IMG/VR virus record: IMGVR_UViG_3300030333_005770
Span: 1 to 64,000 of that record
Length of the DNA stretch: 64,000 nt
From: a virus
Strand: one strand, 5' to 3'
Below the pieces are notes generated by a model, which saw only the letters and a program-made list of their open reading frames with translations, made no database searches and was not told where the DNA came from. Position numbers and translations under genes: made by a program. Shown one piece after another: positions 5,386 through 61,450 of the stretch; the first letter of the stretch is position 1, and each line of letters starts with the position of its first letter.

Positions 5386-5434
5386 CTTGGCGTGTTTATG
5401 CGTCATCCAACAAAAACAAAATAGAATACTAGTA

Positions 5435-11905: not shown

Positions 11906-11910
11906 GTATA

Positions 11911-27941: not shown

Positions 27942-28181
27942 TTAGGCCTTGGCGGTCGGGTTGCGATTGGCTTTACTTATTCCCGTACCGTCATATAGAG
28001 CGCCTAAAGGAGCGCCATAAGCGGGAAATTCAGCGGAATAGATACGTTCCCGAGTGATAAACTCAGCGGCTACCCGGATTCGGGGGCGTAAACTTTGAAT
28101 GCGCCTATTTAATATACGCGCAGGTTGATTCCCGCGGTGGCTTTTAGTTTTGGTGGATGGTTTGGAATGAATATATCTCAT
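27942..28181 (-). CDS. Small basic protein after the portal gene (79 aa)
   Basis: 79 residues with a strongly basic first half (KPSTKTKSHRGNQPARILNRR) and Tyr/Ala/Gly-rich second half. Its ATG overlaps the portal stop (TAATG), so it is co-translated with the portal. Basic proteins here may contact DNA in the head. No family recognised. Confidence 0.6.
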   Translation of the reverse strand: MRYIHSKPSTKTKSHRGNQPARILNRRIQSLRPRIRVAAEFITRERIYSAEFPAYGAPLGALYDGTGISKANRNPTAKA

Positions 28182-30208
28182 TAGGATGGTTGTTGGTATT
28201 GGTTCTGCCCTTGCGGGTTAGAGTTACCCATGCCGGCGGCAGCGGCGGATACTCCGTCTTTCGGTTGTGGTGATACACCAGGTTCTTTAGCCGCATTATC
28301 CCCCATCATTTTCATGATTTCGGCTTCCGACTTAGGATCTGGTGGTGCCTCTTGAGGCAAAAGTTCATCAGTACGCTCATAACCCATAGCGTCAAGAATA
28401 CGCTTGAGCATGGGACGCATAAAGGGGCGCATTTCGGGAGGAGATTGGAAGTATCTCTCTTGAGTTTGCAAGGCAAGCTGGGCTTTCTCTATCGCCCGTT
28501 GACCTTGGTCCTGAGACAGAACGACCTTTGCATTTATATTTAGACCTTCGATCAACTCAGGGGTCATGGTGGCAAAATGAGAAACGTCGCCTTCCATGTA
28601 CTCAAAGACCTCTTCCTCGTCCAAAGTAGCCATGGAAATTTGTACAAGTTTGGTGAGGTGCCCTTCAAAACCCTTCACAATACGGCGCATCCATCGACGG
28701 CCAATTTTCGAAGCTTCTCGGAGGGTGGCCTCAACACCGGTAGCGGTATTCGCTGGTGCGAGTGCTTGGTAGTCTCCCTGAGCCATGTTGGAAACACCGA
28801 GCCAGAGCTGAACGATTCCAAATACGAAATCGATCAACTCTTGGGTCTTAATGTCAACATTGGGAATAGCGGCGAAGTTTAAGAAGTCGTCGATGCTGTA
28901 TTGGTCTTTAAGCTCGAATATTTTACCGGCGTGGAGTTCTACGTCTTCGGGCTCGTCCTCGACAGCATTGGGGTTGACTCCGATTATCGGGTTGGCCGCC
29001 AATTCATTCCTATAGCTTTGAGCGTTGAACTGGCGATCGACATATTCTTGGAATATAGATATTCTCTCAGGTAAGCTTTTACCACACCAGCGGTTACGCT
29101 CTTTACCAATAGACACGACGTTGTATGGTAATCTATTATCAGGAGTGAGCTTAGCTACGTACTCGTAGTATAAGATTTGTTTGGTCTCCGAATCGTAGAA
29201 CACGCAAAATTCTTGGGGGTCTCCGGTCCCAAGAACATCTCTCTTAACCCAGCACTCAACAATTGGGACTACCGGGTTTTCATTTGAATCAAAGGTAAGA
29301 TCCTCGGCCCCCTCATTCTTGTCGATATCGGAACGGGGGTTGGCGTCTTTTTTAACTTTATTGAAATAGTCGGCGTAGCTTACCCACTCCCGCTCTAAAA
29401 ACATGTCCTTAACCCAGTTCAAATCCTTATCATAAAGCTCGGCTACGATATCAGCTTTCTCAATGGATTCAGCATTACTGGGGCAGAGAAAACGATCGCT
29501 GTCTACGACCTCCGACCGTGGACCTTTGTACCGAACCTGTTGAGTGGGGACACCTTCAGGGAAAGGCATGAACTCATGCACCCCGGGTTCCAGCTTAAAA
29601 CTAGGGTCTTCGGCCAATCTAAGTTCGGTCTCACCCGTCAGCATGTTGGGCTCCGGCACGAACTCGGAATCACCCTCAAGGATCGGCCCTTTTCCGGGGA
29701 GTTCTTCAAATTGCTGAAGCTCAGCGTTGTACAAGGCATTTCTTTCGCGGTCATACCATGTAGATATGTCTTCTTCGTAGACGGCCTTTAGTACGACGGC
29801 TCGTTGGATGAAAATATGTAAATAAGCCTCTTCCAAACGCTCCCGGGTTTCCGCTCTAGTTTCTAGCTTCCAGTTAAAATATTTATCGTATGCTTCGGAC
29901 ATCTCTTCATCCCCGGCACCCTGAGCGTCAAATTTGAAATATGGGCTAGTGCCGGTAATTTCATCCTCTGCACGAGCCATGAAGTGGTCGACAACCAGAG
30001 AGGTCAGAGGTACCGATAGGTTTGATTTGTCGAAGATGGTGTCGTGGGAAATTCTATCGTCCCTGTAATTATTGTATGTCTTCCAAGATATCCTGTCCGA
30101 TTCAATTCGGTCCTTATTGTCTTCAAGCAACTGATCCACCCGGTCAGTTAGGTATTTGAAGAGCTTTTTCTCCTGCTCTTCGTTAAGCTGTAAATTGGAT
30201 TGTTTCAT
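28181..30208 (-). CDS. Portal protein
   Basis: 675 residues, in the size range of P22/N4-like portals. Recognisable elements include the N-terminal helices (WKTYNNYRDDRISHDTIFDK), KSNLSVPLTSLVVDHFMARAEDE, the wing region (YYEYVAKLTPDNRLPYNVVS), the stem/crown part (RQFNAQSYRNELAANPIIGV) and a long tail of Pro/Gln/Gly. It forms the ring through which DNA enters and leaves. It begins in ATGA overlap with the giant protein (30208/30205), which suggests that portal and ejected protein are co-translated. Confidence 0.88.
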   Translation of the reverse strand: MKQSNLQLNEEQEKKLFKYLTDRVDQLLEDNKDRIESDRISWKTYNNYRDDRISHDTIFDKSNLSVPLTSLVVDHFMARAEDEITGTSPYFKFDAQGAGDEEMSEAYDKYFNWKLETRAETRERLEEAYLHIFIQRAVVLKAVYEEDISTWYDRERNALYNAELQQFEELPGKGPILEGDSEFVPEPNMLTGETELRLAEDPSFKLEPGVHEFMPFPEGVPTQQVRYKGPRSEVVDSDRFLCPSNAESIEKADIVAELYDKDLNWVKDMFLEREWVSYADYFNKVKKDANPRSDIDKNEGAEDLTFDSNENPVVPIVECWVKRDVLGTGDPQEFCVFYDSETKQILYYEYVAKLTPDNRLPYNVVSIGKERNRWCGKSLPERISIFQEYVDRQFNAQSYRNELAANPIIGVNPNAVEDEPEDVELHAGKIFELKDQYSIDDFLNFAAIPNVDIKTQELIDFVFGIVQLWLGVSNMAQGDYQALAPANTATGVEATLREASKIGRRWMRRIVKGFEGHLTKLVQISMATLDEEEVFEYMEGDVSHFATMTPELIEGLNINAKVVLSQDQGQRAIEKAQLALQTQERYFQSPPEMRPFMRPMLKRILDAMGYERTDELLPQEAPPDPKSEAEIMKMMGDNAAKEPGVSPQPKDGVSAAAAGMGNSNPQGQNQYQQPS

Positions 30209-33200
30209 ACTGATAGATTAATACCTTGTTTTTGCATCTCGTTAATGAGTCGCGCAGCTAATAATAACCACTTTTCCTCTAGTTTTTCGACCCGTTGTGT
30301 TATCTGAACGTTTGTAAGTGTAGTTGAAGCCTTGACTTTTCTTATCTCCTCGTTCGTGCGTAAGCGCATACTTTCGAGCTTTCTGGCTGGTGCGGAGTAT
30401 TTCAGGTACTTAGCATTTTCTTTCTGGTACATTTTCTTGGCAATTGGATCGGATTTGGAATCCAACTCCTTTTCCAAGATGCGCACTTTCTCCCGGAAAG
30501 AACGGAATTTTCTTTTTGTCTGTCCACCATAAGTAGAGCCCGACCAAAATCTAGAAACGATGGGGATCCTGTTATACCCATCCGTCATAGCTTTTCCGTT
30601 AATTGCCCCCCATGTTAATAGAGCGCCTTCTTCAAGGGTGGTAAACAAACCACCGAAAACACTTTGCAAAGCATGTCTCATGTGATTACCGGCAATATCC
30701 CATTTAACATCGTTTACTTCGCTGTAATGTGCGGGATTGTCCCCGAGCAGTCCACGAATGGATCCTTTGACGTTCTCGGAACCTCCGGCGGCTTCGTTAA
30801 TCTTACGAGATAATTCTGTCCAGAACTCAGGCGTTCTAGAGGGATCCCGGGTATGTGCGGGAGTGTTTTGCCCCCACATATCTTCAAACACAATATCCCG
30901 GCCCGTAAAGTCTTTATTAGACGCCCATTCCGTGGCCCCCTTGAGAACAGTAGGTGTGACCATAGTTTGTAAATTTCCCGAACCGAAAGGATTACCCATA
31001 TCAAAAACAGCGCCCGCCATCCTCGACGTGCCTTCGAGCAAGCCAACACCGTTACGACCGCCGGATTGTGCAAATGCGGCCATATCCCCAAGCGTTTGGC
31101 CAATAGCCCACAGACCTGCGGGAAGACCAAGCGGTATGGGTAATGACCAATGATTTTCAGAACCCATATCGAGATCGTCACGCATGAACCCGGGAACCAT
31201 AAATACAATATTCTTATCCCGTTTCCAATGGCTTATTTGATCGTACTTGTTCTCGGTATCATCCTCATCTTCATCAGAAAGTATTCGATTGAGCATGTTC
31301 ATCGCGAAGGAGGTCATCACAATGTTCCCAGCCAATTCCATAGCTCCTTTGAAGCCTCGCTTCTTAAGCATGTCCCATGAACGGGCAGTAGCATTTACAG
31401 ATGCCCGGAAGAACATGTACAAGGCATTCATATGCATGGAGAAATTACCACCCTTATTGAAGTCAACAGTAACATTCCGTGAAGAGGTTGCACTTTGCTG
31501 AACGGAGGCACCGGCTCCAACCGAGGCCCAGAAGGTACTTATCCGAACGGAGTTTTCAGCAACACTGTTTAAAGAATCCGTCCAAGCCCAGAAGTTGTCC
31601 CACGTAGATTTGACATCCTGAATCTTACCCTCCCGAGCATCCTTAATTTGATCCTTCAAAAGCTCGGGTATTGGTTTATGGCGGAAGTATCCAACAAGCG
31701 CACCTTGAGATTTTGCGAACATGTACATCTTGATCGGATCACCCTCGGCAAGTAAATCCTTAGCCACCTGATCGGGGTTCTTACCTTTGAACTCACGAGT
31801 GTCGAAAGGATTCTTGTTATCAATGTTCAGAGTATTTTCAGCTTCATAAATAGCCTTACCCCACTTGTATATATTGGAAGGTTTGAGAGCTTCCCCACGG
31901 AATCTCTTGGTCTCTTCAGTCTCCCCAAGATTGATAAATGCTTGCATGAAGTCCCGGGCAAAGTTGGGAACCACGAATGCGGGGTTTTTAGAAGTTACCA
32001 TTGTGGATATGAAACGCGTAGACACGTTAAATATTTGCATCAATTCCGGTAGAGCTTCGTACCGTAAATTCTTCAATGATTGAGCCATCTCCATCCCAGC
32101 CATGGTTTCGCGGAATTGGATGTAGTGGGTTTCACCCATCCGACGGAAGACAACAATGGTTGGGTCGTTCTTATATTCTTGGCTAATCTCCTTACGAATA
32201 ACCCGCATGCGCTTGCTGGAACCTTCAACACTAAGAGCTTCGTCTTTCCAATCGTACTCGGTTTTTGGAACCTTACGCACGAAAGTTTTGAAGATCTTAT
32301 TGTATTCAGCCTTCATGAGCTCACGAACTTCTTCGTTCTTATGGAGAGCATCCAAATCAAGCCCTTGAAATTCCTTCAATTCTCTAACTTCGGGATTTTC
32401 AGGCTCAGCACCAAAAGCTATGCGACGCATGGCATCATGCATATCGGCAAAGGAATTAACAACCTCAGCCTTGTGCGCAAGAATAACGCCTTCGGAATAT
32501 GCACGTTCGGCGGCGGGGAATGCAAACTTCGGATCTGGTCCGACCTGGTTGCTCCTACCAAAAGCCCCGTGCTTTAGAAGTCCGCGAGGCATATCAAAAC
32601 CACGTCCGGAACTTCCGCTCGGGCTACCAAGCAAGCTCCAGGCTTCTTCACGTTCAAATAGAGTCTGCGTTTCCCCCTCAAACCCTTGCATAGGTGCATA
32701 TGCATAGTTCTTGTTAACCCCCGCGGGGAATTGCGGTTTCCATTTCGATTTACCAGTCCAATCAAAATACGAAGCCGCTTGGATCATTCGTTTCTCTTCA
32801 GTCGGATCAACGAGGTTAGCTGTGGTGCGGTTAGCCAAATCCTCAAGATTCATATCATAAAACTTCTGAATAGGATTATTCGGATGGTTCATGAATGCTT
32901 GGAATGCGGGCTGGTTCTCGATGTTCTTTACGGCTTCTATAGCTGCTTCGGTATCAATACCGGAATTAGGAACACCACGCTCTTCGGCTTCCTTGATCTT
33001 CTTGGCGTTCTTCTTTTTATCCTGCTTAAGATCACGGAGCATGTCCGCGTATTGCTTCTCGTGGTGAATGTTACGAGTGGGGGCATTGCGGGCTTGGAAC
33101 CAAGTACCAACGGTTTCGATGTCAACACCGCTATCGCGAATAGCTTCCATGAAAGGCTCCCGGAAATTCACACGGGCTTGTTCAACGCTGTCGTAACCCT

Positions 33201-36200
33201 TACCAAAATAGATGTGTTTCTTGTCATAGGTATTCATGGCATCCGCAACTACGGAGTTGGGGTCAATACCAGCAATACCGAGCATACGTTCGAAACCTTC
33301 CTTGATCGGTAAATCGGAATCCACGTAGTCGAGAGTGAGCCTGCGTTGATCGAAGAAACCCCGACCGGTCTTCATTGCGGAGGCCTCTTTTCGCGCCTCA
33401 TTCCATGACTTAAGCTCGTCGGTTGCTACGCTAAGTCGGGATAAGATACCCGCTTGTTCTACGGGATGGCGATTGCCCAACATACTCGATCCGAGGTAGA
33501 CATCTTTGACTTTCGCGAGGTCTCTAGCGTCTATCTTTTTGTCTGGCCGGGAGCCATGCACAAGGTCCTGTATGGCTTGGTTTCTTTTAGTCAAATCTAC
33601 CCTATCCTTTTTACTTTTGGTGGTTTTATCGAAAGTTTTGGTATTCTTCTTATCGATAATAATACCGCCCAAATCGAGAACAGCTTCTAAAAGGGTGTTC
33701 TCGACCTTAAGCCTGAGAAGTTTCTTAACTGCGGCTACGAAAGCTTGCCAGAGATTAGTGGGCTTCCACCCGGTCTTAAGATCCTTAACCGCTTCGGCTA
33801 TGTAATCGGGGGTCTTTATCGAAGCTAAATATTTTTGAAAAGCCGGATTCGAAAGACCTTCGGCTAAAAGCTCTTTAGAATTTCTAGTGGATCCGTAATC
33901 TACAATCTTAGCCTTATCACCCTCGGGTAATTTTAAATGCGCTTCCCTCAGCTCGTACTGAATTTGCTCGAGGATTTCATCGGCTCGGTACCCTTTCATC
34001 CGCTTATTTAGCGTGTCTTCACGAGCCATGTCTTCCATGACCCTCTTATCCCACTCCTCCGAGAATGGGTCCACTTCCTCCTCCATCATTTGGGCCTGGT
34101 CTCTTCTACTCTTAGTCACAGCGACTGCAAGCTGGGCCTTGGCTAAAACATGTATGAGCTCATGGATAACTGTTTTTGCGTTTGCTCTACCCGCGACTAG
34201 AGTTACATCCATGTCGGCAACTTTTGCTATTTCGTAATCGGTACCCTTGAGATTTCGATAGTCATACTCTGTGTGGGCGAGCCCGGCAAACGTGTCCGAC
34301 ACATCCGACCGGCTCTTCTTATGTTTGGGGCTTCTTAAAGTTACTAAAGTCGATCGAATGCTCTTTGAATTTAGGAGTAAATCATGGAGAGATTTAATAA
34401 AATCACCCACTCTCGGTAGGTACGCTAGCTCGGCATTAAGTGATTTTTTCAACTCGGATAAACGCTTTGCGTATCCTGTGTCTGGGAACGCCCGGGACAC
34501 ATTCCGCTGGAGCTTTTCCAAGGTTGCTGGTCTTAAGGCCCGCCGTATAAGCTTAGCCCTATTGGCGTAATCCTTACGCATTGCCAACAGTACCTTTGTA
34601 TAAAACGCGGGTCCGCTGGTGCGTAACGACTCCCGCAAGAGAGTTTCTATTTTAGCACGAGCGCCAGAGCCAAAGTGACTGAAACCGGACATATCAATGG
34701 CTGTATTTTCAGCCGCTGGCTGCCAAGGTGCCCAAACCTCCCCTCCGCTTTTCCCCCGGCCTGGGTCAATACCGAAAACCTTGAATGTTTCGGGAAAATA
34801 ACTTGAGTCAAAAGTTTCTGTCATCCAATGCCGACGGAGAAGCCTCTGTTCCTTAGTGCTAAGATTCCGAGTTTTGATGGCGCCGGGATCTATTTTCTTA
34901 TCCGTTCCGTGGATTTCATTAAAAAGCTCCGCGATCAGCGTAAGCTCCCCATCTGGGTCTTTTTCTTGGTTTAGGGCACCCCACAAATTTCTAGGGATAC
35001 CGCCGTTAGCCAGCATCTCGAGACTGTCGAAATCCATGTGGATGCTTGATCCGAGGAGTTGCTGATGCCCTGGATTCCGACGCTGCCATTCAGCAACTCG
35101 TTCAGCAACCGGATTGCCATTTTCAACTCCGCGGTCTATCTGGTCCTGCGTCGTTTGTCTAACCAATACTCCCACCAAATCTGCCTTGAGTGCCGCGGAC
35201 GCACTAGACGATGTGTTTATGCTGTCGTAAACTGTACCACCCTCCCTTGGCCCAAGTATAAAGTAATTAGCTTCCTCCCGCCCATCTTGTTGGCGGGACA
35301 TATCAATACGCAAGACATCCCCAAACCTTGCGTCCTGAACGAAAAGCTCATCATTTACAGCTAAACTCGATCCAAGGAGTTGATCATTCTGCTGACCTTC
35401 GTCCGTCGGCTCGGGTCTTTCGACCGTACCCTCATCCGGTGAGACCTCATCTATTCGGACCTCCTCCCGTTGGACCTCAGGTTTGATGTTAATCTCGTTG
35501 GTCGTTTGGGATTGTTCTTCGAGCAAGATCTGTTGGCCCTCGGCAATCTCCTTATCCAAAAGGTCGACGAAATCAGCTATGAACTCAACGTCCTCCATTG
35601 AAAGGTTTTTCAGCTTCTTAAACTTAATGGTCAGATCCTTGATCGCACCCATCAATGCATCTACCTTGAGGTAACCCTCAAAATTCTCCTTTGCTTGTAC
35701 GATCTTATATTGTGCAGCTGCTCTTTTAAGAAGGATCAATTGTTTTTTGATATCCTCACTAGCCCCACTCCCCGTGCCTCGTTTCAATAGGTTATACTTA
35801 TTCCGGATTTTTGGTAGCTCTCGCTTGAACTCTTTCCAAATCTCCGGAGTGATTACGTATTTGCGTAAGCGTTCATTAATTTGCTCGCGTGTGTGAAAAC
35901 CTGCTTTTTTCTGAGCAGCATGTATGGCGTCTTGTGCAGCCACCCAACGCTTGTGCTGGGCGGTGCCAAACATCCCCCAAGGTGTTTTGAGAAGCTTTTT
36001 TTCAAGATCATGTAGCCCCAGCTCCTTCTTAATCCTTCTAGTTATAAAGAGTTCAAGCTCCGTGGTTTCCTGTAAAAAGTCCTTGTTGGAGGGTTTGTCT
36101 TCAAAAAGAGAACCTTGTGCGGACACATTAGACATGGTCGCACCTTTGGAGAATTTCATGACTAGATCATTATACCGGTCTATCTCCTCATTCAGTTCCT

Positions 36201-39200
36201 TGAATGCCTGATCGTTCATATCCCCCAGTACGAGCGATTCAAGATTCCGCTCCAGATCTTCAATATATACCTGAAGAGTTTCGGCATTCATGTTCTTGAT
36301 CCGACGGGACATTACTTTAACTTCGTCCTTTAATCGATAGCCTGTTTCACCGGGTCCCATTGGGAGATCAAGATCTCTTTCCCCAGCTGAACCGTATATC
36401 ACATCAACCCAGTTCTCTCGGCGACTGGTATAGCTAGAAACCCCCGGTCCCGTTGGGGCTCGCTCGGTAATCAATCGACCATCTTCTGGTCCTTCACCCA
36501 TCATATAGTGGTACAGGTCTTCTTCGCCCGCCAACGCGTCCATATATGCATGATCAACCTTGGTAGCCGTTGCTTGAAGAGCGAGCAGCTTCTTAAAACT
36601 TTCAAAAGCTGCTCTTTGAGCGATATCCGTTGGTGGGGTCGATGGAATCTTCGGAGCAGCCACCGCCAATGCCAAGCTCTTCAAAAATCCACGACGCGTG
36701 GGTTTCATACTCGAGCCATACATCTGTATGGGTTTGTTCTTACGCTCGCTCTCCGAAGGCATTCCCCCGCCACCTTCCCACCGTCTCTGCGCTTCTTGGA
36801 CCGCGCGTGCTAATCGGAAAAGGTATTGACTTAAAGTTTCTGAGGATAGTACGGGTTCTCCCATTTGTACAATATCCCCCTTTGCTAAATCGTCCAAAAG
36901 TTTTAAGGGGCTGTCTTTAACGCCTAGTGTCTCCTTCGTACCAATAGAACCTGGTTCCGTGCTTGTAATCGTCGCGGTACCTTTACCCACGCTTGTAATC
37001 TCCCCGGTAAACGGAGCCATCCGCCCTTCGCCTTGTTTTTCCCATTGAGGGCCGAGAAGCTCTAAAGTTGCTCTTAGCGCTTTTAACCCGTCCGGATTAA
37101 CTTGTCCGACCTCGTCAAACCATTTAGTAATGCGCGCATCAAATGTATTACGCCAGCCGGGAAGAAGTCTTCCATTTTCATCTACGGGAAGTTCATCAAC
37201 ACTCGGAGGGTATGGCACATCATCCCAATTGTCGATCGATTTGCCGTGCCTATCGTGTGTCGTAACATGATGAAAGTATTCCGCAGTAAGTATTTCTTGT
37301 TCTAAGATGTGGTTTATCAAAGGTCGGGCACGTTCGGTTTGGTTATTAGCCCACCGGAAAATAGCATCGGTAGCCCGATTCATCTGTTCGGTAAACGAAG
37401 CCCGCATACCCTCATATGTTTGCTTATGCTCCTTATCCAGACTAGCTTCGGCTTCGTCGAGAGGGCTGTCCTCAGTTGGGTCAGCCGTGGCCGGCGCATC
37501 TACTTTTATATCTTCCTGAGGCGGAGGCTCGCCGGTTGCTTGGCCGTCATCGTCTGAATCACCAGAATCACCCATATCCGCACCGGCAAAATCCTTCTTC
37601 GTAGATTTCGTAGAATGTTCGGCGCCTTCAGCGGTAGCTTCGTCAATGTTTTGTTCTTCTCCCTGCTCCTGTTCGAGGATGGTGTGATCAGTCTGTTCAT
37701 TCCAGTAATCATGTCGGCCGGCATTAGACACGGCTCGGGCAATCGGACCGAGTGCTTTGACAAGGTTCTGGTTCAACCACTCTTGATTACCGACCATGGA
37801 TGCTGGTACGAACATCCAATCATCATCAAATCGAGAACGGGTAAGGTTTTTACGGGCATCTTCAAGTATCCTTGGAAATTCTTTCGACCAGACTTTATCC
37901 TTTACTTTATGCTCTAGCTCCTTACCCCGGGTGGAGGCTAAAACGGTACGGAAAACGCCATCTTCTTTGACACGTATCTTGATCAATTCTTCCATCAATT
38001 TGATGTTGTAATCGTCTTTGGTGGTGGGTTCTATACCCTTGCCCGCCTTTTGAGCAGCCCTACCTTCCCAATCCTGCTGGCCTTGGGTCTCTCTAAGAAC
38101 CTTGGTGTAAGCTTCTTCAAGCTTGTTTTTATTTTCCCGGACGCCCTTGTTTTTCAATACCTGATACGCTTGTTCAACACTGAAAAATCTGTAGAACTCA
38201 CCATTAACGTTTGTAACCCCGGGTACGGTAAAGAACTTAGGAGTACCGTCAGAACCCAAACCCATGCCGCTAAAGTTAGAAAGGTATGACCATTCATCCT
38301 TAGTCGAGGATTTGATGTTGATCTTTTTAGCGGTCTTACCACCGGTGGATTTTTTGCTCTTCTTGCCCTTCTTGGCTTTTACACGTGCGGTAAATTCGCC
38401 AGTTTCCAAAGCCTCAAAAATATTACTGAAGTCAGCTTCCCGGTCCTTGTTCGGTTTTACATTGCTGTAAATCCAAACATTGTCCATGGTTTTACCCTGC
38501 TTAATAAAAAAGTCTTTCAGTTGGGCCATGTCTTGAGCAACCGCCCTGGGGTCAAATTTATCTACATCAAACTGACGAACAATCTTACCTTGTGCAAGGG
38601 CGAGCTCTTGGATCTGATCTATCTTTTGGTTCTTATTCCATTCACCCTGGGAATCCGAAGTCCGGAATACATAGATAATATCTGCTTTTTGCGCATTCTC
38701 GGCCAAGGCGAGGTTATCGTATACGAAATCAGTAGTTCCTTCTTTTTGCCTCCCGACAACTTCCTTTTTATCCAAGCCATAGAGAGGGTGGTCTGGGGTA
38801 GGGTTACCCTCCTTATCTGTTGTAAAGTTTTTAGTAGTAGCACCCGATATATTGGACTTACTGTATGATTGTAGCTTAAGAGCTAAGAACTCGGACATTC
38901 CTTCACCATCTACAATGATGTTTTTAGGTACGCCAATAGCGCCAGCGTCGACGACTACCTTTTTATTTGCATCGGTATCGGTAACATCAGCAAGGTCTAC
39001 ATCTGGTAACAGGCTGTCAAAATTCGGATCGGATATATCAAATCGCTTAAGGGCTTTCCACGCTTCTTCATCCTTGGGGATAAGCTGACCGTTCTCTTCG
39101 GTAAGTAATCCGAGTTCAAGATAGAATTTTTTGAGAAGCGGGAAAATAACACGGGGGAATAATCCACCCATAGGTGCTCCGGGAGTGCCTTTACCGCCCC

Positions 39201-42200
39201 GGTCGATATTCCCAGCCATCATGAACATATCCACCCCGTAATTCATGATCTGTTCGATCAATCGACGGGGGGTCATGTGTAAACCGCTGACCAAAGAGTT
39301 ATGCCAGTAATTACCCCGGGATTCTTCTTTTGCCAACCAAGCCCGTTGGATACGGTAGTAGTCGTTTTCGAGGTTTACTTCTTCATCAGGACCGCTGGCT
39401 TCATACTCAGCATGTCGATAAACCTTGCGTTGGTTCTTGGTGTTTACCCAGCGGTCACCCCGCCAAGTAGCGGAGTCCTGAACGCCTTTTTCATTTATGA
39501 ATTTGACCTCAGTAAGTGGGGGAATACCTTCGCGAGCGAGGCTGTTTATTATGACCTCAGAGGCTTCGAGATTGTCCCGGTGCCAGCCTTTCCATTCGGA
39601 TGAGAAATATTGAGGGCCTGCTCCAGTTACTCCGCCGTACCCGATCATCTCGGCATACATCTGTACAAAATTGGTAGGAGTATCAACGGCCGCCCGGATG
39701 AAATCGTTATGGTCTTTACCCTCGTTACCGTCCTTAACTATACCGTTTGGACCTTTTATAGGATTGGACTCATCGAAAGCGTCTTTATGTTGGATATACG
39801 GACTTTCTCGGTCCAAAAAGGCATCTATTCCATCGCGGAATTTATCATGCTCATCAATAGCGAAGCTGGGGTTGTCCTGCCGGATGCGCCAACGGGTATT
39901 ACCAAAGGCTTTGATCGTGGCTTTCTTCCCTTGGTCGGTTGAATGAACTTGGGTAAAGGGATCACCAAAGATCATGGGATATCCACCCTGGACATAATGC
40001 TTTCTAAGAGCGTCCATTATGTGGTCATCTTCCTCGGTCCAAAAATCTCCAAGGCGTTCTTTTTCCCGCGCTTCCAGTCGGTCAACAAGAGCAGAGCGTA
40101 GGGCGGGTGGGTAATCCCCAATACCTCCCTTTTGATCCTTCTTATCCTTACCGCGTAAAGATTTTTCAAGAGCTTTACGGGCTTCTTTCTTAGCCGCTTT
40201 TCTTTGTCCGGAGCTCTTTTCAGCCCACGCTTTTTTTTCTTCTTCGGATCTTGATTCCTGTATAGATGCCCAATAATCATTGAAAGCATCATTCATTAAT
40301 TCGTTGTCCTTGTTCCGCATCCATTGAGCTGGGTTACCAAGCTCATGGGACTTCCACCATACATACATGGAACCAACGCCCCCGGCCCAAGAGCCTTCCA
40401 TCTCATCGGCTTCTTTATTCCAATACTCCAGCATTGCTTCAGCAATGCGGTGGGGGTATTGCCATTCCCGGAACGGATCTAATCTCTGAGACTTAGGAGT
40501 GCTACCAGATTCATCGGTGGGGTACTTACCCCCGGTGACATCCATACCAGCTGCAAATTTAAAAGAGCCGGAAGGTGCAATCTTGGCACTAGCTTCGGTC
40601 GGCTCGGCACTTTGAGAGTAAGTAGTGTCGCCCTTTCCGAATATACGATACCCAAATCGTTTTTGGGCCATCTCTTCACCCATCTCCTCAAGATACTCAC
40701 TAACCGTTCCGCGGAATTTAGCTTTCTCTTTGGCGATCCTTACCTTCTTCATGTCAAGAAGGCTGTATACAGACCCGGGCATTTCCCCGGTCATGTCACC
40801 AGTAGCTAGTCTGGATATTAGACGTTGATGAAGTTTAAAAAGCGGAATGCCCCCAGGTACTCGTTCTTCAAGAACAAGCTTATTACCATCAAGGGCAATA
40901 AAACGAGCCTCCCGAGAAGCGTTAGTTTGAAAAGAGGGGGATCTTGGGAGGCCTTTAGATTTCCATTTTTCCCACGCTTTTTCATCGCTCTTCGGCGGTT
41001 GCTTTGGTGAGAAAGCACTATATACCTTTTGTGTTTCACCACCCGGGAGCCTAAAACCTCCCCGCTCAACTCGAGCATCTGTTGACTCTTTTCCTGTTAC
41101 AAACCTAAAACCCTCGGTGACGTTTTTCTTGGTTACCCAGGGATGGAGTACGTCCTTACCCCTCTTCTCGAGTTCTTCCTTACTCAGACCACCAAGTTTA
41201 ATCGCAAGCGCCCGGGAGTCCGCATCAAGCTCATTAATATTGATCTCTACCCGACGGGTCTTTTTTCCTTTTTCATCACCCCAACCGTACATACGTCCAT
41301 AAGCAGTGGCATTACCCCAGACTTCTTGACCGTCAACTATTTTAACTTGGCCTTCCTTCCGGGTATCAGTCATGAGTGATTCAACGTATCGACGTCTCTG
41401 GTGGAGAAGGATTCTCATCCTTTGACCACTACGCAAACCGTCGTAATCCTGAGCGGCACCGGTAAAGGCTTCCCCTACCCGGCCCTGAAGAATACTAGCA
41501 ATCATCTCCTCTTCAGGAGTGGGCACGGCTGATTGTACGGTGTTATATGAAACAAAAGGATGAGTACCTTCGGGATCGTCCAGCAATCCATCCTTTTTGA
41601 ACTTGTCGTATTGACGCTTTCTTCTCTTTTCTGAGACCTTAAGAATCTGGTGAGCAAGGGTCTGAATTAAAGTGGTCCCTTCGTCGGGGGTAGCATACCC
41701 TAAATCTTTAGGGTCCCCATCGGCATCAAACCGTGTGGGTGAAAAAGTAATTTTACCCTTACCTTGATTAGACCAAGAAGCTTCGGCAGCTACGAGGTGC
41801 ATGTAATACTCATCGGGCGTGAGGAAGCTCAAATAGTCTTTTCGGAACTCGGACTTCTTAAGCTTCTTGGGATCAAAATCCTTTAGGTATTGTTTAAAAG
41901 CGGTGGGTCGGTAAATGCTGGTCTGGTATTTTTTGTCCTTAAGATTTATGTACCCGGGTTTTGTCTTTGTCGCTTTACCGGGGCGGGAATCTTTGTACGC
42001 TGTGATCTCATTAGTTCCCTCAATCAAATCCTTTAAAGTAACCCTCCTCCAGGAAATCACATTTTTCTCAACCTGTTGCACCCCATCCTCATCCGCTTCA
42101 GCCAACGGCTGTGGAGTTTCGACCTTGAGCCAATGGTTTTGATAGGGCCCTAACGCAGGTACATCAGCCCATTTAATACGGGAGTTAGAAGGGGAAATTA

Positions 42201-45200
42201 AAAATAGATAATCTCGAAGGCGTTTGATCTGTGTGCGTACGGAATCAACTCGCTTGTCCTTAGCGGCTCGGGCTTGCATCTCGAGCTGACCCTGAGAAGC
42301 ACTCATACGATCAAGAACATATTTGCGTACGCCCTTGGGATCTTTCGGATGTGCCTTTTCGGCATCCAAAACGGTGTTGTACCAGAAATTGTAAATGTTG
42401 GACTCCGCAGAGGGCTCGAAGGTCTTCTTCTTCTTATCGTACCTCCCGGACGCGAGCCGTTGTATCATGGCAAAGAAAGCCTGGCCTTTTGAATCTTCCT
42501 CGTTCACAGCGCCCAAGTCATCCCAAGAATCCGTATTAAAAGTTGTTGCGGATTCCGTGTTAAATTCGTCCTTGGCCTTTTTACGGCGAAACTTATCAAC
42601 AAGTTTGGTAAGTTTACGGGGGGTCATGTCGGGGAGTTCGATCAAGGCCTGAATAAAGCGGGGTATTGGTCCGGCTCCTTTAAAAATATGGAACGCCGGG
42701 GCTTTAGCGATAGCCTGGCCGGCTTTTTCAGGTGTGATCTTCGAAGGTTGGTTGTCCACCTTTTTGCGCAGTTTCGAAAGTGCGGAATCAATATCTTTAC
42801 CACCGAGTTCTTCCTTAATAGCATTTTCCAAATACTCGCCAAACACATCCATCAGGAGGGTCCGTCTTTCATTTTCCTTCTTTAATTCTGTCCCGGTAAG
42901 TGGGATGTCTCCCCGAGTTAAGAAAACCCCGAACTGATATTTAGGCCGGCCCTTCTTCATTTTACGCACCCGGAACCCTACATTGAACTGCCTATTAAAC
43001 TTTGCATCTTTACCCTTACCCGTAGTGAGTTTAAATTGTGCTTCGGGGTTTCCTGCGTAATCTTTTTGGTATTGGAAATTCTTAGCTACCCCAGCCCAAT
43101 ACTTAAACCTATTTAACAGGTTCTTGTAATCTTGTTGGTCCGCCTTGTTTTTGCTTTTTCTGAGGTATGCGATGCTGTCTGCAAACGCCTTTTGGCCGTA
43201 AAATATTTTAACCCCTTTAGCCGGTTGGGACTTAATTTTTACCAACCTCGCCTTACCTTTACCTCTACCTTTACCTTTCTTCTTGGGGACCGCTTCTAAA
43301 GGCCGGCCCAAGCTACCTTGCGGGCGTTTCTTTACCTTCTCAAAATTTCTTTGGTTAACACCGATGGCTCCTTCCACAGAGTCCATCTGGTTTGTCAACT
43401 CATTAATACGCTGCTGGATAGCTTCGGCAGTCATTGTCTGTAACTGCTCGTCTTGGAAATAAGCTTCCTCAATATCTTCAGGAGACGGCGTCAGTTCCGA
43501 GTCCCTCTCGGCAAGATCTTTAGTCGCTACGAGGGGGCCCAATTTTGAACGGTCTACCAACTTTTCTATGTCTACAATAGAAGCCAAAACCTCAGAATCA
43601 CTAATCTGAGAATCCAGTACGGCACGAACATATTTTTCTACAGTGGCTTCGAATCTACCAGGTATCTCATATTCCTCGGGGTTAGCTTCACGATGTTCTT
43701 CAATCTTGGCTATTACATCGGGAAATGCTTGAGCGATATTGGGATCCTCTTCAAAGATACTGTCAACCATCTCTTTTCTTTTGAGGTACATCGCTTTTTC
43801 CAATTCCTTAGGGTCTTGGATAAGCTTTTGCATGCGTTCCTGCGCAGCAAGAGTGTCTTTGTCCTGCTCATCAACAACGGCGCGTTCGGCAGTAACAAAG
43901 GCGCGCGCCTCTTCGACCGTCTTATGGTAGGTTTTTGCAGGGGTCGGCAAATTATACCCTTTTCCACCGGTACGGGTGACTGTGACTGAACCGTTTTCGT
44001 TCTGGGAAGCGGTGTATTTTGGGCGGTCTACTAGTTGCTCTATATCACGTCTTCGATCTCTTTCAGCATCCTGAATGAGGCCGGCGTCATCCGCTTTAGT
44101 CTGGACGGTCTGTACAATCTTTTCCGCTCGGGCAATATCGGGGTCTTCGGTGGCTTTAACAGGCACAGTCCCTCCATACCCATCATCCCTTGATCCTTCT
44201 TGACGAAGATACTCGGGGTCAGCCGCAATAGCTGCATCCACTTCAGCAGTGGCTTGGTCAAAGATACCACCCTCTTCCAAAACAGCGTCTGAACGACGCT
44301 TTGCCTCTTCTCGCTGCTGATCGACCGTTTGGAACATGGTGTCCTGAGGGTCGAGAATATTCGCACCCATCAAGGAGTTCACCGCCCAGATCGCACGCTC
44401 ACGGTCAAGAACATCCATGGCTGCGATCTTATTCTTAAGATTATTCAGACCCTCCTGCTCGGTAAGCCCCTCATAACCCGTAGGTAGATCGGTACGATTG
44501 TCAGCACGATTGACGTCGGATCTATATTTGAAAAAGGTTTCAAGGTCACCCATGCGGGAACCGTTGTTCGTATACCCCATGGCGTTGAGAACAGCCTGAC
44601 CAATTCGAATCTGTTGTTCCGGGGTACCTGCGTATTCTTCAGCGCCCATATAACCGGCAAAAGACGGTACGATATGCGACTCGAAAAACTGCTTGAGTGG
44701 TTTGGCAACTGATTGGTGAGCGCTGTCGCCAACCAATAAACGGGCAAATTGATAAGCAAACCATTCTTCGGCACGGACAAGCTCGGTAGACGCGTTCCAT
44801 ACGGCATCCACTTGACGTTTGCCCGCGGGATCAAGCTGGCTGTACTTGGCCTTGGGTGTCTTTACTACATATTCAGTAAGCGCATCAAGTTGAGCTTCTT
44901 TGGTAGGAAGCGCGGCATAGTAGGTGTTGATGAACGCTTCGTCGTTCTCGAACATTGATTGACGGGCAAAGTGAGCCGATTCGTGCATGAACGCACGGAG
45001 CGGATTCTTAGCCATCATTTCTTTGTTCAAATAGATAAGCGTGGCTCCAGTCTCCGAATCATACTCAAATGAACCCTCCTGAAGAATGTCGGGGGATGGT
45101 GTACGGTCGGATAGAACCCACCGGATATTCGAAAACTTCTCAGGGTTGAGCTGTTGTAAACGAGCCATGTAATCCTGAGTCCATTGACCCATTGGAGAAT

Positions 45201-47703
45201 CGTACTCAAGACCGCTTGCTTGTAATAAATGGGCGGCGGCAGCATCGGATCGTTCAAAGCTATTCCAGTCCCTAACCATACCCGCACGGGTAACGGTACC
45301 GGTCAGACCTGTGTTGGTACCCCTCGGGGTACTGAACTCTATGGCAGAGGTGCTGAGATCCATCTTGTCCGGGTTGCGCATAACCTGCGCAATCGCACCA
45401 CCCATACTCATCGGACTAGCGACATCTACGATACCTTCGGCCGCGATAGCGTGCATATCAAGGGGTTCGCCCTCTTCACGCTCCCACAGCTGAGCAAGCA
45501 ATTCACCACTCATACCACCAGCGGCACCAGCGGCCATTTCTCCAGCGGCACCACGGGCTCTTTGCCAGCGGGTAAATCTAGGTACGGAAGCTTTGGCTTT
45601 TCTCCAAGCATCCGCATTGACCAGTTTTCCACCCCGTAACTTGTTGTACTTGGTAAGGTGTCCAACCCGGCCAGCTAGTAAAGCCATCAATGCATCTACA
45701 CCACCGACACCAAGACCACGCTTATAAGCACGCTCTTTAAGACGCTCCATTATGGCGGGCGAATTAAACGCAGCCATAACGATCTGAGGATCTCCGGTAT
45801 CAATACCCAGCTCACGGAGTTCCTCCATGATGGCCCCGGCATATTCAATAGTCAAAGAAGACACACCCCAATTAAGGCGAGCGCCGAAACCAAGCCCAAC
45901 TTTAAGCCCTGCAAATCCACCCACTCCCATACCCGCCGTGGCAGTGGTACCAAGCACTTCTGGAGCAGTGTACGCATAGGCGGGTAAAAAAGCGGACAGG
46001 GACTCAACGATGAATTCTGGGATCGCTTTGGGGTTGTCAGCCAACAGACCGAAGGCGTATACGATGTCGTCAAACCAGGACTCTCCCTTGGATGGGTTTG
46101 CTTGCTGGGCTTCTTGAAGCCGCTGAAGCGCGGTGGATCCCGGAAGATCTTCTATATCTTGGGCCGCATCCAAAAAGTTCTGAAGCTCGGATTCTTGGAC
46201 GTCGTTGAGCAAGATTTCCTTAGTGAGCTTAGACATTTCGGCACTCTTGAAACCACGCTTAAGAGCATTACCAAGACCTTCAAGCAAACCAACCCGTTCA
46301 TGGCGGGAGGTGGCTTGCTCATACAGACGGCTCACCAATCCGGCATCACCAGCGGTATATAGAGCTTGATGATAGTGGTCACGGGCGGCATTCATTGCAT
46401 CCCGTGCATTGTTCCGTTCGTCCGGATCACCACCGCCAGCCATCCGAATAAAGTCTTGTTGGGCGAGCTGGTAAGCATCCCGGGTGGCATATACGTTCTT
46501 TAAGAACTTGGTAGCACGAAGACGCTCATCACCACCCATGCTTTGGAAAGCTTCCTCGAGAGATTGGCCCTTGTACTCGGTAAGCCCGGCCTCACGCATC
46601 CTGGCAATATCCAAGATATCCTCGTCCTCACGGCTAAGACCGCGGGGATAAATAGCTTCTTTTCGGGGCATCATATACCCCTTGTCCCGAAGCGCACGAA
46701 TACGCTCGGCCATGGATCGACTATTTAAGAAGCCTTCAAGATCACCCTTTTGCGCCGCGGACAAACGCTTGGTTTGGCGGGCCATCGACTTGGTACTGGC
46801 TCCACCATAAGTGGATACCCAGCGGGGGTCGATCTTGTTGATGTTTAAAATGTCACCAGTCTTTGGATCGAATCGTGGGGCTTCCCATTTATACGAACCA
46901 AGCATCTGATCAAGCTCAGTGTCATCAAGTTTTTGACTACCTTTAAGAGCTTTTCGAGAAGCAGCAAGCTCCTCGAGTTCCATCTTCTGTTCAAAAGGAA
47001 TGCTGAGCAAACGCTCCTGCATATAGTCCCGCTCACGGGCAAAGTGATCAGCGCGTTCTTGACGGGCTTCGTATTCCCCACGTAAGCGTTCGTATTTCTC
47101 ACGTAGGCCATTACGCGCACTAAAAGGATTCCATAGCTCAGATTGCTCACGAGCCATAAGGGTTTCATCAGAGGGTCCGCTTGAGAACAGCCCATCCTGG
47201 TCAGGAGAACTCGCCAATTTTTGATTAGTGGCGAAATCGTTATCCAACCCTTGGATATAAGAATCTACATCAAAGTCTTTACCGTAGGTTTCGAACCTAC
47301 CCATTTCCGTACCAAAAGGTACGAGCTCATTCTCTAAGAAATCTTCATACCGTTTTTTCCAAACACTGGCTTGCGTGTTATGATCTCTTGCGAAACCGTC
47401 TAGTTGGGTAAAGAATTTATCAGCTTCCTCATATTCATCCAGCGCGGAAAAGGACATCGCCGGTTTATGGGCAAACTTCTTATCCCACCGACCATCCGGA
47501 TCGTATGTTTCATGAGATTGAAAAGTCGGGAGCTTATCGTGCTGAGCAATAGGGCCCGTAGACTGTGAAGCCGGACCAGTACCGGGGTCAAAAGGCTGCC
47601 ACTGGCGCTGGATCGGTTTACTAAGAAACCGGGTCAGCCCTGCTTTTTCGAACTCATCCTCCTCGTAGTCGTCAAGCAGCCCTATATTATCAAATAAGGA
47701 CAT
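30205..47703 (-). CDS. Giant polyvalent, probably ejected virion protein (5832 aa)
   Basis: One unbroken frame of 17.5 kb. Visible parts in order: charged helical N-terminus; a Gly/Ala hydrophobic, membrane-active-looking segment (about 555-700); zincin motif HESAH (907-911); several charged regions; a SLOG-like segment (about 2960-3110; ADIIYVFRTSDSQGEW); a NADAR domain (about 3130-3295; YLSNF, SVEQAYQ and the later RTVLAST-x-E block); a Tat-like signal (MKPTRRGFLKSLAL from 3666); a helical stretch; a second zincin HELIH (4514-4518); and a C-terminal domain of about 750 residues resembling LPD38 (NPAFVVPNFARD, SRNVTVDFNKGG). This is the architecture of phage polyvalent proteins that enter the host with the DNA. 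It lies between portal and another large virion protein, and its stop overlaps the portal start. Confidence 0.85.
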   Translation of the reverse strand: MSLFDNIGLLDDYEEDEFEKAGLTRFLSKPIQRQWQPFDPGTGPASQSTGPIAQHDKLPTFQSHETYDPDGRWDKKFAHKPAMSFSALDEYEEADKFFTQLDGFARDHNTQASVWKKRYEDFLENELVPFGTEMGRFETYGKDFDVDSYIQGLDNDFATNQKLASSPDQDGLFSSGPSDETLMAREQSELWNPFSARNGLREKYERLRGEYEARQERADHFARERDYMQERLLSIPFEQKMELEELAASRKALKGSQKLDDTELDQMLGSYKWEAPRFDPKTGDILNINKIDPRWVSTYGGASTKSMARQTKRLSAAQKGDLEGFLNSRSMAERIRALRDKGYMMPRKEAIYPRGLSREDEDILDIARMREAGLTEYKGQSLEEAFQSMGGDERLRATKFLKNVYATRDAYQLAQQDFIRMAGGGDPDERNNARDAMNAARDHYHQALYTAGDAGLVSRLYEQATSRHERVGLLEGLGNALKRGFKSAEMSKLTKEILLNDVQESELQNFLDAAQDIEDLPGSTALQRLQEAQQANPSKGESWFDDIVYAFGLLADNPKAIPEFIVESLSAFLPAYAYTAPEVLGTTATAGMGVGGFAGLKVGLGFGARLNWGVSSLTIEYAGAIMEELRELGIDTGDPQIVMAAFNSPAIMERLKERAYKRGLGVGGVDALMALLAGRVGHLTKYNKLRGGKLVNADAWRKAKASVPRFTRWQRARGAAGEMAAGAAGGMSGELLAQLWEREEGEPLDMHAIAAEGIVDVASPMSMGGAIAQVMRNPDKMDLSTSAIEFSTPRGTNTGLTGTVTRAGMVRDWNSFERSDAAAAHLLQASGLEYDSPMGQWTQDYMARLQQLNPEKFSNIRWVLSDRTPSPDILQEGSFEYDSETGATLIYLNKEMMAKNPLRAFMHESAHFARQSMFENDEAFINTYYAALPTKEAQLDALTEYVVKTPKAKYSQLDPAGKRQVDAVWNASTELVRAEEWFAYQFARLLVGDSAHQSVAKPLKQFFESHIVPSFAGYMGAEEYAGTPEQQIRIGQAVLNAMGYTNNGSRMGDLETFFKYRSDVNRADNRTDLPTGYEGLTEQEGLNNLKNKIAAMDVLDRERAIWAVNSLMGANILDPQDTMFQTVDQQREEAKRRSDAVLEEGGIFDQATAEVDAAIAADPEYLRQEGSRDDGYGGTVPVKATEDPDIARAEKIVQTVQTKADDAGLIQDAERDRRRDIEQLVDRPKYTASQNENGSVTVTRTGGKGYNLPTPAKTYHKTVEEARAFVTAERAVVDEQDKDTLAAQERMQKLIQDPKELEKAMYLKRKEMVDSIFEEDPNIAQAFPDVIAKIEEHREANPEEYEIPGRFEATVEKYVRAVLDSQISDSEVLASIVDIEKLVDRSKLGPLVATKDLAERDSELTPSPEDIEEAYFQDEQLQTMTAEAIQQRINELTNQMDSVEGAIGVNQRNFEKVKKRPQGSLGRPLEAVPKKKGKGRGKGKARLVKIKSQPAKGVKIFYGQKAFADSIAYLRKSKNKADQQDYKNLLNRFKYWAGVAKNFQYQKDYAGNPEAQFKLTTGKGKDAKFNRQFNVGFRVRKMKKGRPKYQFGVFLTRGDIPLTGTELKKENERRTLLMDVFGEYLENAIKEELGGKDIDSALSKLRKKVDNQPSKITPEKAGQAIAKAPAFHIFKGAGPIPRFIQALIELPDMTPRKLTKLVDKFRRKKAKDEFNTESATTFNTDSWDDLGAVNEEDSKGQAFFAMIQRLASGRYDKKKKTFEPSAESNIYNFWYNTVLDAEKAHPKDPKGVRKYVLDRMSASQGQLEMQARAAKDKRVDSVRTQIKRLRDYLFLISPSNSRIKWADVPALGPYQNHWLKVETPQPLAEADEDGVQQVEKNVISWRRVTLKDLIEGTNEITAYKDSRPGKATKTKPGYINLKDKKYQTSIYRPTAFKQYLKDFDPKKLKKSEFRKDYLSFLTPDEYYMHLVAAEASWSNQGKGKITFSPTRFDADGDPKDLGYATPDEGTTLIQTLAHQILKVSEKRRKRQYDKFKKDGLLDDPEGTHPFVSYNTVQSAVPTPEEEMIASILQGRVGEAFTGAAQDYDGLRSGQRMRILLHQRRRYVESLMTDTRKEGQVKIVDGQEVWGNATAYGRMYGWGDEKGKKTRRVEININELDADSRALAIKLGGLSKEELEKRGKDVLHPWVTKKNVTEGFRFVTGKESTDARVERGGFRLPGGETQKVYSAFSPKQPPKSDEKAWEKWKSKGLPRSPSFQTNASREARFIALDGNKLVLEERVPGGIPLFKLHQRLISRLATGDMTGEMPGSVYSLLDMKKVRIAKEKAKFRGTVSEYLEEMGEEMAQKRFGYRIFGKGDTTYSQSAEPTEASAKIAPSGSFKFAAGMDVTGGKYPTDESGSTPKSQRLDPFREWQYPHRIAEAMLEYWNKEADEMEGSWAGGVGSMYVWWKSHELGNPAQWMRNKDNELMNDAFNDYWASIQESRSEEEKKAWAEKSSGQRKAAKKEARKALEKSLRGKDKKDQKGGIGDYPPALRSALVDRLEAREKERLGDFWTEEDDHIMDALRKHYVQGGYPMIFGDPFTQVHSTDQGKKATIKAFGNTRWRIRQDNPSFAIDEHDKFRDGIDAFLDRESPYIQHKDAFDESNPIKGPNGIVKDGNEGKDHNDFIRAAVDTPTNFVQMYAEMIGYGGVTGAGPQYFSSEWKGWHRDNLEASEVIINSLAREGIPPLTEVKFINEKGVQDSATWRGDRWVNTKNQRKVYRHAEYEASGPDEEVNLENDYYRIQRAWLAKEESRGNYWHNSLVSGLHMTPRRLIEQIMNYGVDMFMMAGNIDRGGKGTPGAPMGGLFPRVIFPLLKKFYLELGLLTEENGQLIPKDEEAWKALKRFDISDPNFDSLLPDVDLADVTDTDANKKVVVDAGAIGVPKNIIVDGEGMSEFLALKLQSYSKSNISGATTKNFTTDKEGNPTPDHPLYGLDKKEVVGRQKEGTTDFVYDNLALAENAQKADIIYVFRTSDSQGEWNKNQKIDQIQELALAQGKIVRQFDVDKFDPRAVAQDMAQLKDFFIKQGKTMDNVWIYSNVKPNKDREADFSNIFEALETGEFTARVKAKKGKKSKKSTGGKTAKKINIKSSTKDEWSYLSNFSGMGLGSDGTPKFFTVPGVTNVNGEFYRFFSVEQAYQVLKNKGVRENKNKLEEAYTKVLRETQGQQDWEGRAAQKAGKGIEPTTKDDYNIKLMEELIKIRVKEDGVFRTVLASTRGKELEHKVKDKVWSKEFPRILEDARKNLTRSRFDDDWMFVPASMVGNQEWLNQNLVKALGPIARAVSNAGRHDYWNEQTDHTILEQEQGEEQNIDEATAEGAEHSTKSTKKDFAGADMGDSGDSDDDGQATGEPPPQEDIKVDAPATADPTEDSPLDEAEASLDKEHKQTYEGMRASFTEQMNRATDAIFRWANNQTERARPLINHILEQEILTAEYFHHVTTHDRHGKSIDNWDDVPYPPSVDELPVDENGRLLPGWRNTFDARITKWFDEVGQVNPDGLKALRATLELLGPQWEKQGEGRMAPFTGEITSVGKGTATITSTEPGSIGTKETLGVKDSPLKLLDDLAKGDIVQMGEPVLSSETLSQYLFRLARAVQEAQRRWEGGGGMPSESERKNKPIQMYGSSMKPTRRGFLKSLALAVAAPKIPSTPPTDIAQRAAFESFKKLLALQATATKVDHAYMDALAGEEDLYHYMMGEGPEDGRLITERAPTGPGVSSYTSRRENWVDVIYGSAGERDLDLPMGPGETGYRLKDEVKVMSRRIKNMNAETLQVYIEDLERNLESLVLGDMNDQAFKELNEEIDRYNDLVMKFSKGATMSNVSAQGSLFEDKPSNKDFLQETTELELFITRRIKKELGLHDLEKKLLKTPWGMFGTAQHKRWVAAQDAIHAAQKKAGFHTREQINERLRKYVITPEIWKEFKRELPKIRNKYNLLKRGTGSGASEDIKKQLILLKRAAAQYKIVQAKENFEGYLKVDALMGAIKDLTIKFKKLKNLSMEDVEFIADFVDLLDKEIAEGQQILLEEQSQTTNEINIKPEVQREEVRIDEVSPDEGTVERPEPTDEGQQNDQLLGSSLAVNDELFVQDARFGDVLRIDMSRQQDGREEANYFILGPREGGTVYDSINTSSSASAALKADLVGVLVRQTTQDQIDRGVENGNPVAERVAEWQRRNPGHQQLLGSSIHMDFDSLEMLANGGIPRNLWGALNQEKDPDGELTLIAELFNEIHGTDKKIDPGAIKTRNLSTKEQRLLRRHWMTETFDSSYFPETFKVFGIDPGRGKSGGEVWAPWQPAAENTAIDMSGFSHFGSGARAKIETLLRESLRTSGPAFYTKVLLAMRKDYANRAKLIRRALRPATLEKLQRNVSRAFPDTGYAKRLSELKKSLNAELAYLPRVGDFIKSLHDLLLNSKSIRSTLVTLRSPKHKKSRSDVSDTFAGLAHTEYDYRNLKGTDYEIAKVADMDVTLVAGRANAKTVIHELIHVLAKAQLAVAVTKSRRDQAQMMEEEVDPFSEEWDKRVMEDMAREDTLNKRMKGYRADEILEQIQYELREAHLKLPEGDKAKIVDYGSTRNSKELLAEGLSNPAFQKYLASIKTPDYIAEAVKDLKTGWKPTNLWQAFVAAVKKLLRLKVENTLLEAVLDLGGIIIDKKNTKTFDKTTKSKKDRVDLTKRNQAIQDLVHGSRPDKKIDARDLAKVKDVYLGSSMLGNRHPVEQAGILSRLSVATDELKSWNEARKEASAMKTGRGFFDQRRLTLDYVDSDLPIKEGFERMLGIAGIDPNSVVADAMNTYDKKHIYFGKGYDSVEQARVNFREPFMEAIRDSGVDIETVGTWFQARNAPTRNIHHEKQYADMLRDLKQDKKKNAKKIKEAEERGVPNSGIDTEAAIEAVKNIENQPAFQAFMNHPNNPIQKFYDMNLEDLANRTTANLVDPTEEKRMIQAASYFDWTGKSKWKPQFPAGVNKNYAYAPMQGFEGETQTLFEREEAWSLLGSPSGSSGRGFDMPRGLLKHGAFGRSNQVGPDPKFAFPAAERAYSEGVILAHKAEVVNSFADMHDAMRRIAFGAEPENPEVRELKEFQGLDLDALHKNEEVRELMKAEYNKIFKTFVRKVPKTEYDWKDEALSVEGSSKRMRVIRKEISQEYKNDPTIVVFRRMGETHYIQFRETMAGMEMAQSLKNLRYEALPELMQIFNVSTRFISTMVTSKNPAFVVPNFARDFMQAFINLGETEETKRFRGEALKPSNIYKWGKAIYEAENTLNIDNKNPFDTREFKGKNPDQVAKDLLAEGDPIKMYMFAKSQGALVGYFRHKPIPELLKDQIKDAREGKIQDVKSTWDNFWAWTDSLNSVAENSVRISTFWASVGAGASVQQSATSSRNVTVDFNKGGNFSMHMNALYMFFRASVNATARSWDMLKKRGFKGAMELAGNIVMTSFAMNMLNRILSDEDEDDTENKYDQISHWKRDKNIVFMVPGFMRDDLDMGSENHWSLPIPLGLPAGLWAIGQTLGDMAAFAQSGGRNGVGLLEGTSRMAGAVFDMGNPFGSGNLQTMVTPTVLKGATEWASNKDFTGRDIVFEDMWGQNTPAHTRDPSRTPEFWTELSRKINEAAGGSENVKGSIRGLLGDNPAHYSEVNDVKWDIAGNHMRHALQSVFGGLFTTLEEGALLTWGAINGKAMTDGYNRIPIVSRFWSGSTYGGQTKRKFRSFREKVRILEKELDSKSDPIAKKMYQKENAKYLKYSAPARKLESMRLRTNEEIRKVKASTTLTNVQITQRVEKLEEKWLLLAARLINEMQKQGINLSV

Positions 47704-58802: not shown

Positions 58803-58842
58803 AGTGTGTGAGTTTGGTGGTTAATAGTATGGTGAGCCTTTT

Positions 58843-58853
58843 ATATGGACATG
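58843..58853 (-). promoter_or_regulatory. CATGTCCATAT motif with TATAAA, candidate promoter of the rIIA-like gene
   Basis: The minus strand reads CATGTCCATATAAAAGG, with a TATAAA -10-like box, 41 bases before ATG 58802. It is the second copy of the 11-base element seen at 56118-56128. Confidence 0.5.
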
Positions 58854-58873
58854 CTCAGGTCCAACCATGATTA

Positions 58874-61448: not shown

Positions 61449-61450
61449 AA

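Follow-up and report, generated by a model that had tools for sequence, protein, structure and literature searches.

Defences that act through NAD or ADP-ribose, among them Thoeris and DarTG, are a major part of bacterial immunity. Does a giant protein of this marine phage hold a counter to them that could enter the host together with the phage DNA? The stretch that we analysed, here called the window, covers 64,000 of the 69,086 bases in a virus record. The initial annotation had drawn attention to positions 37798-38760, where it saw a SLOG-like segment and a NADAR domain inside a protein of the ejected type. This interval encodes residues 2982-3302 of a 5,832-aa giant. If delivered ready-made, such a module is predicted to be able to counter ADP-ribose-based bacterial defences upon entry. 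The gene and the region in question are laid out as follows.

30205..47703, minus strand: ORF of the 5,832-aa polyvalent giant protein (P0001), with C-terminal matches to LPD38 and phrog_14770/616
38401..38949, minus strand: SLOG-like domain (cpYpsA-type fold), aa 2919-3101, from the structural match to 3imk
38335..38400, minus strand: Lys/Ser-rich linker from the SLOG-like domain to NADAR, seen in the sequence and as low pLDDT at model residues 214-227
37828..38334, minus strand: NADAR domain, aa 3124-3292, from hhalign and from the AF2 model with its matches to 8bau and 2b3w
37654..37821, minus strand: conserved segment past NADAR, aa 3295-3350

Judged by profile comparison and modelling, residues 3124-3292 are a divergent, well-preserved NADAR domain. 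Domains of this kind in giant phage proteins escape standard annotation. The PF08719 NADAR model had no match anywhere in the virus record, and the segment matched neither NADAR nor SLOG in Pfam, PHROGs or NCBIfam. Profile methods gave a clear signal. With hhalign, the sequence of the giant alone matched a phage NADAR profile with a probability of 96.7 (P 4.2e-10, aa 3121-3305). When 185-aa segments were slid along the whole giant, a single NADAR peak appeared, and the best P among segments not overlapping it was 0.078. A profile of five giants, the one in the window and four kin, matched NADARs with a probability of 98.6 (P 1.3e-15). Conversely, when NADARs of the gp30.3 and YbiA types were made into a profile without the giants, hmmsearch recovered all five with it, the giant of the window being the weakest (E 9.9e-5). 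The reference NADARs gathered were phage YbiA-like and gp30.3-like sequences; the E. coli YbiA sequence used is that of PDB 2b3w except for one residue. Running hmmsearch --max across all giants yielded no additional NADAR at E < 1e-3. A match in the L082 giant (E 0.004) was located in the C-terminal backbone and was considered to be due to chance.

Searches for relatives by single sequence were negative. Neither the segment nor its surrounding 1,800 aa had a tblastn match in 50,697 phage records, a PDB sequence search with the segment returned no relevant match, and IMG/VR scans using the segment or the C-terminus as single sequences returned none. A further IMG/VR scan recovered only giants that were already known. 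No giant-type NADAR was confirmed in 84,980 species genomes, which were searched with narrow patterns.

The fold of the region was predicted with AF2 for aa 2895-3345 from 23 sequences; a model from the single sequence was discarded (mean pLDDT 47.7). In the NADAR part, pLDDT is mostly 81-97. Foldseek placed 8bau, the P. nicotianae NADAR-ADP-ribose complex, and YbiA at ranks 1-2. Comparison with VIA gave Z 14.4 for 8bau (rmsd 2.2 over 142 residues) and Z 12.6 for YbiA (2b3w). True NADARs were in the AF2 alignment, which makes the NADAR part of the model dependent on the assignment, and it is the profile results that serve as independent evidence. Thus, the proposed NADAR domain is borne out by the single hhalign peak together with the fold match, and the structural check that had been suggested for it came out in its favour.

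Is the active site still there? We followed the residue assignment of PMC11543638 and located these positions by alignment.

38173..38175, minus strand: catalytic Glu3177 (E43 of the P. nicotianae NADAR), invariant in 20/20 aligned NADARs
38152..38154, minus strand: catalytic Lys3184 (K50 of the P. nicotianae NADAR), Lys in 19/20 aligned NADARs and Arg in 1/20
37909..37914, minus strand: Glu3264-His3265, third catalytic position
37888..37899, minus strand: Asp3269..Trp3272 (D130 and W133 of the P. nicotianae NADAR)

The loss of catalytic residues that might have spoken against the initial annotation did not occur: Glu3177 and Lys3184 are both kept, with the lysine seven residues past the glutamate as in the NADAR superfamily. 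For the third catalytic position, PMC11125620 reports Glu where the NADAR is of the YbiA type, Asp where it is linked to DarT1 and His where it comes from a phage. The position is His in all five giants and in gp30.3; the preceding Glu is found among giants only in the window. Glu3177, Lys3184, His3265, Asp3269 and Trp3272 are also kept in the four kin giants. As these residues are invariant despite only about 30-40% identity among the five, their retention suggests selection for activity. At other positions the domain departs from the P. nicotianae enzyme. The equivalent of R79 is Lys, and the two residues that touch the pyrophosphate in 8bau, W89 and R93, have no counterpart in any of the five giants; the window has a gap and Asn there. 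Members of the gp30.3 type do not align there either, and W89 and R93 are typical of YbiA-type members rather than defining for the superfamily.

With phage-type NADARs such as gp30.3 of T4, the NADARs of the giants share the profile match, both catalytic residues (Glu and Lys) and the His at the third position. However, gp30.3 is a small free-standing protein, whereas these domains lie inside giant proteins and form their own clade, and unlike gp30.3 they retain the Asp..Trp pair of YbiA-type NADARs. With YbiA (2b3w) and the P. nicotianae NADAR (8bau), the domain of the window has in common the fold, the S-N-F motif, E43, K50, D130 and W133. It differs from these two in lacking W89/R93 equivalents and in a His that takes the place of E125 or sits next to it, and identity in the structural alignments is 16-25%. 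In a midpoint-rooted maximum-likelihood tree, the giants formed one clade that joined gp30.3 with support 96, and YbiA-like sequences lay apart. This placement is tentative because the branches are long.

Ahead of NADAR lies the SLOG-like segment. Model residues 25-207 (aa 2919-3101) matched 3imk, a cpYpsA-type SLOG protein, with Z 9.6 over 136 residues, and the next entry reached 6.4. Confidence in this part of the model is lower (pLDDT about 40-85). As it was built only from giants, the match to 3imk was not driven by outside SLOGs. The same structure, 3imk, also matches the Pfam-recognised SLOG of the L124 giant (E 7.7e-13). In sequence, by contrast, the segment has lost the GGQTGAD-type nucleotide-binding motif and the GS-x-LT motif and has VDGEGMSEF and QGEWNKNQKI instead; against a three-sequence SLOG profile its hhalign probability was 0.8, which gives no sequence-profile support. 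It thus shares the fold of cpYpsA SLOGs such as 3imk and the L124 domain (PF12694), but not their motifs. We call the segment SLOG-like, and not a member of SLOG, because these motifs are gone, and the loss of the nucleotide-binding motif means that a role as an enzyme is not supported for it. The annotated SLOG-like segment is therefore supported by its fold. The interval originally marked includes all of the NADAR domain but only the second half of the SLOG-like domain, which starts upstream. The two are adjacent, as had been claimed, with the linker at 38335..38400 between them.

Could the giant be present at entry? Its gene lies among virion and packaging genes, flanked by terminase and portal genes, and comparison with kin giants divides it into conserved ends and a variable middle.

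51061..52812, minus strand: large terminase, upstream of the giant (phrog_24361 / phrog_2)
43354..47703, minus strand: conserved N-terminal backbone, aa 1 to about 1100-1450
44971..44985, minus strand: HExxH zincin-like motif, aa 907-911, in the N-terminal backbone, from motif comparison
33463..43353, minus strand: variable cargo zone, about aa 1451-4747; in blastp most kin giants share only the ends
30217..33462, minus strand: conserved C-terminal backbone, aa 4748-5829
30757..31254, minus strand: LPD38 (large polyvalent protein associated domain 38), aa 5484-5649 (PF18857, E 1.7e-21)
28181..30208, minus strand: portal protein, directly downstream of the giant (phrog_1216, E 1.6e-28)

A single 1,104-aa ORF (47717-51031, minus strand) separates the large terminase from the giant; it has no Pfam or PHROGs match. 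Within the giant, Pfam recognised only LPD38 and PHROGs only the C-terminal backbone. The protein is thus very large and multidomain and has an LPD domain, as in phage polyvalent proteins. It resembles those proteins (PMC5512222) and the DarB-like giants of Bcep22-like phages in its huge multidomain build, LPD38, its place in a virion gene cluster and a homologous C-terminal backbone. This backbone is shared with gp69 of Burkholderia phage JC1 (E 1e-9; one stretch, 22% identity), a 4,515-aa protein of which 51 unique peptides were seen in virions purified on CsCl (PMC9144972). This homologue in purified virions is the best, though indirect, sign of packaging, and it makes it plausible that the giant is packaged and its domains are pre-delivered. 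The view of the giant as an ejected-type carrier was thus upheld by LPD38, the position between terminase and portal, and the virion homologue.

NADARs are known from phages, and packaging of some has already been proposed in general terms (PMC9503650). Viral NADAR and SLOG domains are typically standalone outside RNA-virus polyproteins (PMC9503650). The survey of polyvalent proteins (PMC5512222) names neither NADAR nor SLOG in its main text. Within the open-licence literature, an LPD38 giant that holds NADAR next to a SLOG-like domain appears to be new as a variation on this known theme.

Kin giants were found through the terminase and then by alignment of the C-terminal backbone. There are about 21 distinct ones, up to 5,832 aa long. 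Their ends are conserved (aa 1 to about 1100-1450 and about 4750-5829 in the numbering of the window), being mostly 30-43% identical, with L085 and L090 more distant. The N-terminal HExxH motif of the window recurs in the 19 kin giants that have the N-terminal part covered. NADAR, in contrast, is carried by only five of the approximately 21 giants; besides the window, these are L092, L122, L124 and L127 (phmmer E 1e-8 or better). L097 provides a natural experiment, as the same carrier has the module in some kin and cleanly lacks it here: the SLOG-like and post-NADAR segments of L097 are both kept and are joined through a Lys/Glu-rich linker, with no NADAR core. Other giants differ elsewhere in the middle. 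The giants L088 and L090, otherwise distant from each other, have two middle pieces in common (52-56% identity) in differing settings, L090 also has helicase-like pieces, and L134 has DUF4326 in its cargo zone (aa about 1646-1734). Because the middle varies in these ways between kin, we conclude from the comparison of sequences that it is an exchangeable cargo zone. The L124 giant has a cpYpsA SLOG (PF12694, Pfam E 2.1e-23) directly after NADAR, at aa about 1596-1775. In a cpYpsA search of the kin records only L124 was above the cut-off, and a weak candidate in L134 (15 bits) was left as unconfirmed.

Our preferred model, to which we give a probability of about 0.55, is that a SLOG-like and NADAR module in the exchangeable zone of a virion-type polyvalent protein hydrolyses an ADP-ribose linkage early, with soluble signals as the likeliest substrate. 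The giant would be packaged and ejected with the phage DNA. Its NADAR domain would then hydrolyse the N-glycosidic linkage of ADP-ribose early in infection, and the SLOG-like domain may bind or position an ADP-ribose-type ligand without catalysing. The likeliest targets would be soluble ADP-ribose-derived defence signals or toxins, with ADP-ribosylated guanine in phage DNA as a second choice. Three lines lead us to favour soluble signals, which suit the data no less than DNA marks of the DarT type. From the company that phage NADARs keep, namely SLOG, Macro and DUF4326 domains, it has been argued that soluble ADP-ribose derivatives are what they chiefly encounter, and DUF4326 itself has been linked to SLOG and NADAR (PMC9503650) and to Macro. 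Matching partners recur in the cargo of kin giants, with SLOG next to NADAR in L124 and DUF4326 in L134; a search of the virus record for a Macro domain found none. Additionally, a phage NADAR that removed ADP-ribose from guanine in vitro gave no protection from DarT1 in cells (PMC11125620).

This last result also bears on the DNA-directed alternative, in which the module would arrive as a ready-made antitoxin and clear ADP-ribose off guanines of the incoming phage DNA, opposing DarT1-like toxins. Removal of ADP-ribose from guanine in vitro is a property of NADARs generally, one from a phage included (PMC11125620, PMC11543638), the catalytic Glu and Lys are kept with His in the phage position, and a phage mimic of an antitoxin against DarTG is reported from another setting (PMC11481870). 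However, the aspartate at the third position and the extra lysine (K115) that mark DarT1-linked NADARs (PMC11543638) are absent from the window, which has His and Gln instead. Together with the failure of the tested phage NADAR against DarT1, this makes the antitoxin role unlikely, perhaps one chance in four. The domain might instead be a remnant, a worn-out non-catalytic spacer or ligand-binding piece of a structural virion protein. The lost W89/R93 equivalents, the lost SLOG motif and the failure of Pfam to recognise the domain would all suit such decay, yet decay would hardly leave Glu, Lys, His, Asp and Trp invariant in all five copies borne by giants, at identities of only about 30-40%, and we consider it improbable. 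Least probable to us is a function outside defence, either reversal of the phage's own ADP-ribosylation or housekeeping of NAD, riboflavin or RNA repair. E. coli YbiA does work on riboflavin intermediates (PMC11543638), and PMC5512222 describes ADP-ribosyltransferases (ARTs) as common in polyvalent proteins. Nevertheless, Pfam and PHROGs scans of parts of the window showed no ART, NAD-salvage or RNA-repair domain, of which divergent ones could escape such scans, and the patchy presence of NADAR among the giants fits conflict better than housekeeping.

Beyond this locus, a wider hypothesis, for which we would give less than even odds, is that marine phages load the exchangeable slot of a conserved ejected carrier with ADP-ribose-processing modules (NADAR, SLOG and DUF4326) and so meet the NAD-based immunity of the host before any gene is expressed. 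The NADARs of the giants might then form a third branch in phages, next to those of gp30.3 and of the YbiA-like proteins, with a substrate of their own.

The cargo zone of the giant has other motifs. There is a second HExxH at aa 4514-4518 (34150-34164, minus strand), and the region around it (aa 4217-4684) is 36% identical to the L122 giant, which itself has two such motifs. In mid-giant, at aa 3669-3675 (36679-36699, minus strand), a Tat-signal-like TRRGFLK is followed by a hydrophobic stretch; a comparable SRRNFLK is found in the cargo of the L082 giant. Elsewhere in the window, homologues of rIIA and rIIB adjoin each other at 56568-60001 (minus strand), and a Gene product 88 family protein, a DUF932 protein and a weak match to Ogg-HhH DNA glycosylase cluster at 60425-63452 (minus strand). 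Finally, the window encodes an integrase at 11887-13077 (plus strand), and thus the phage may be temperate.
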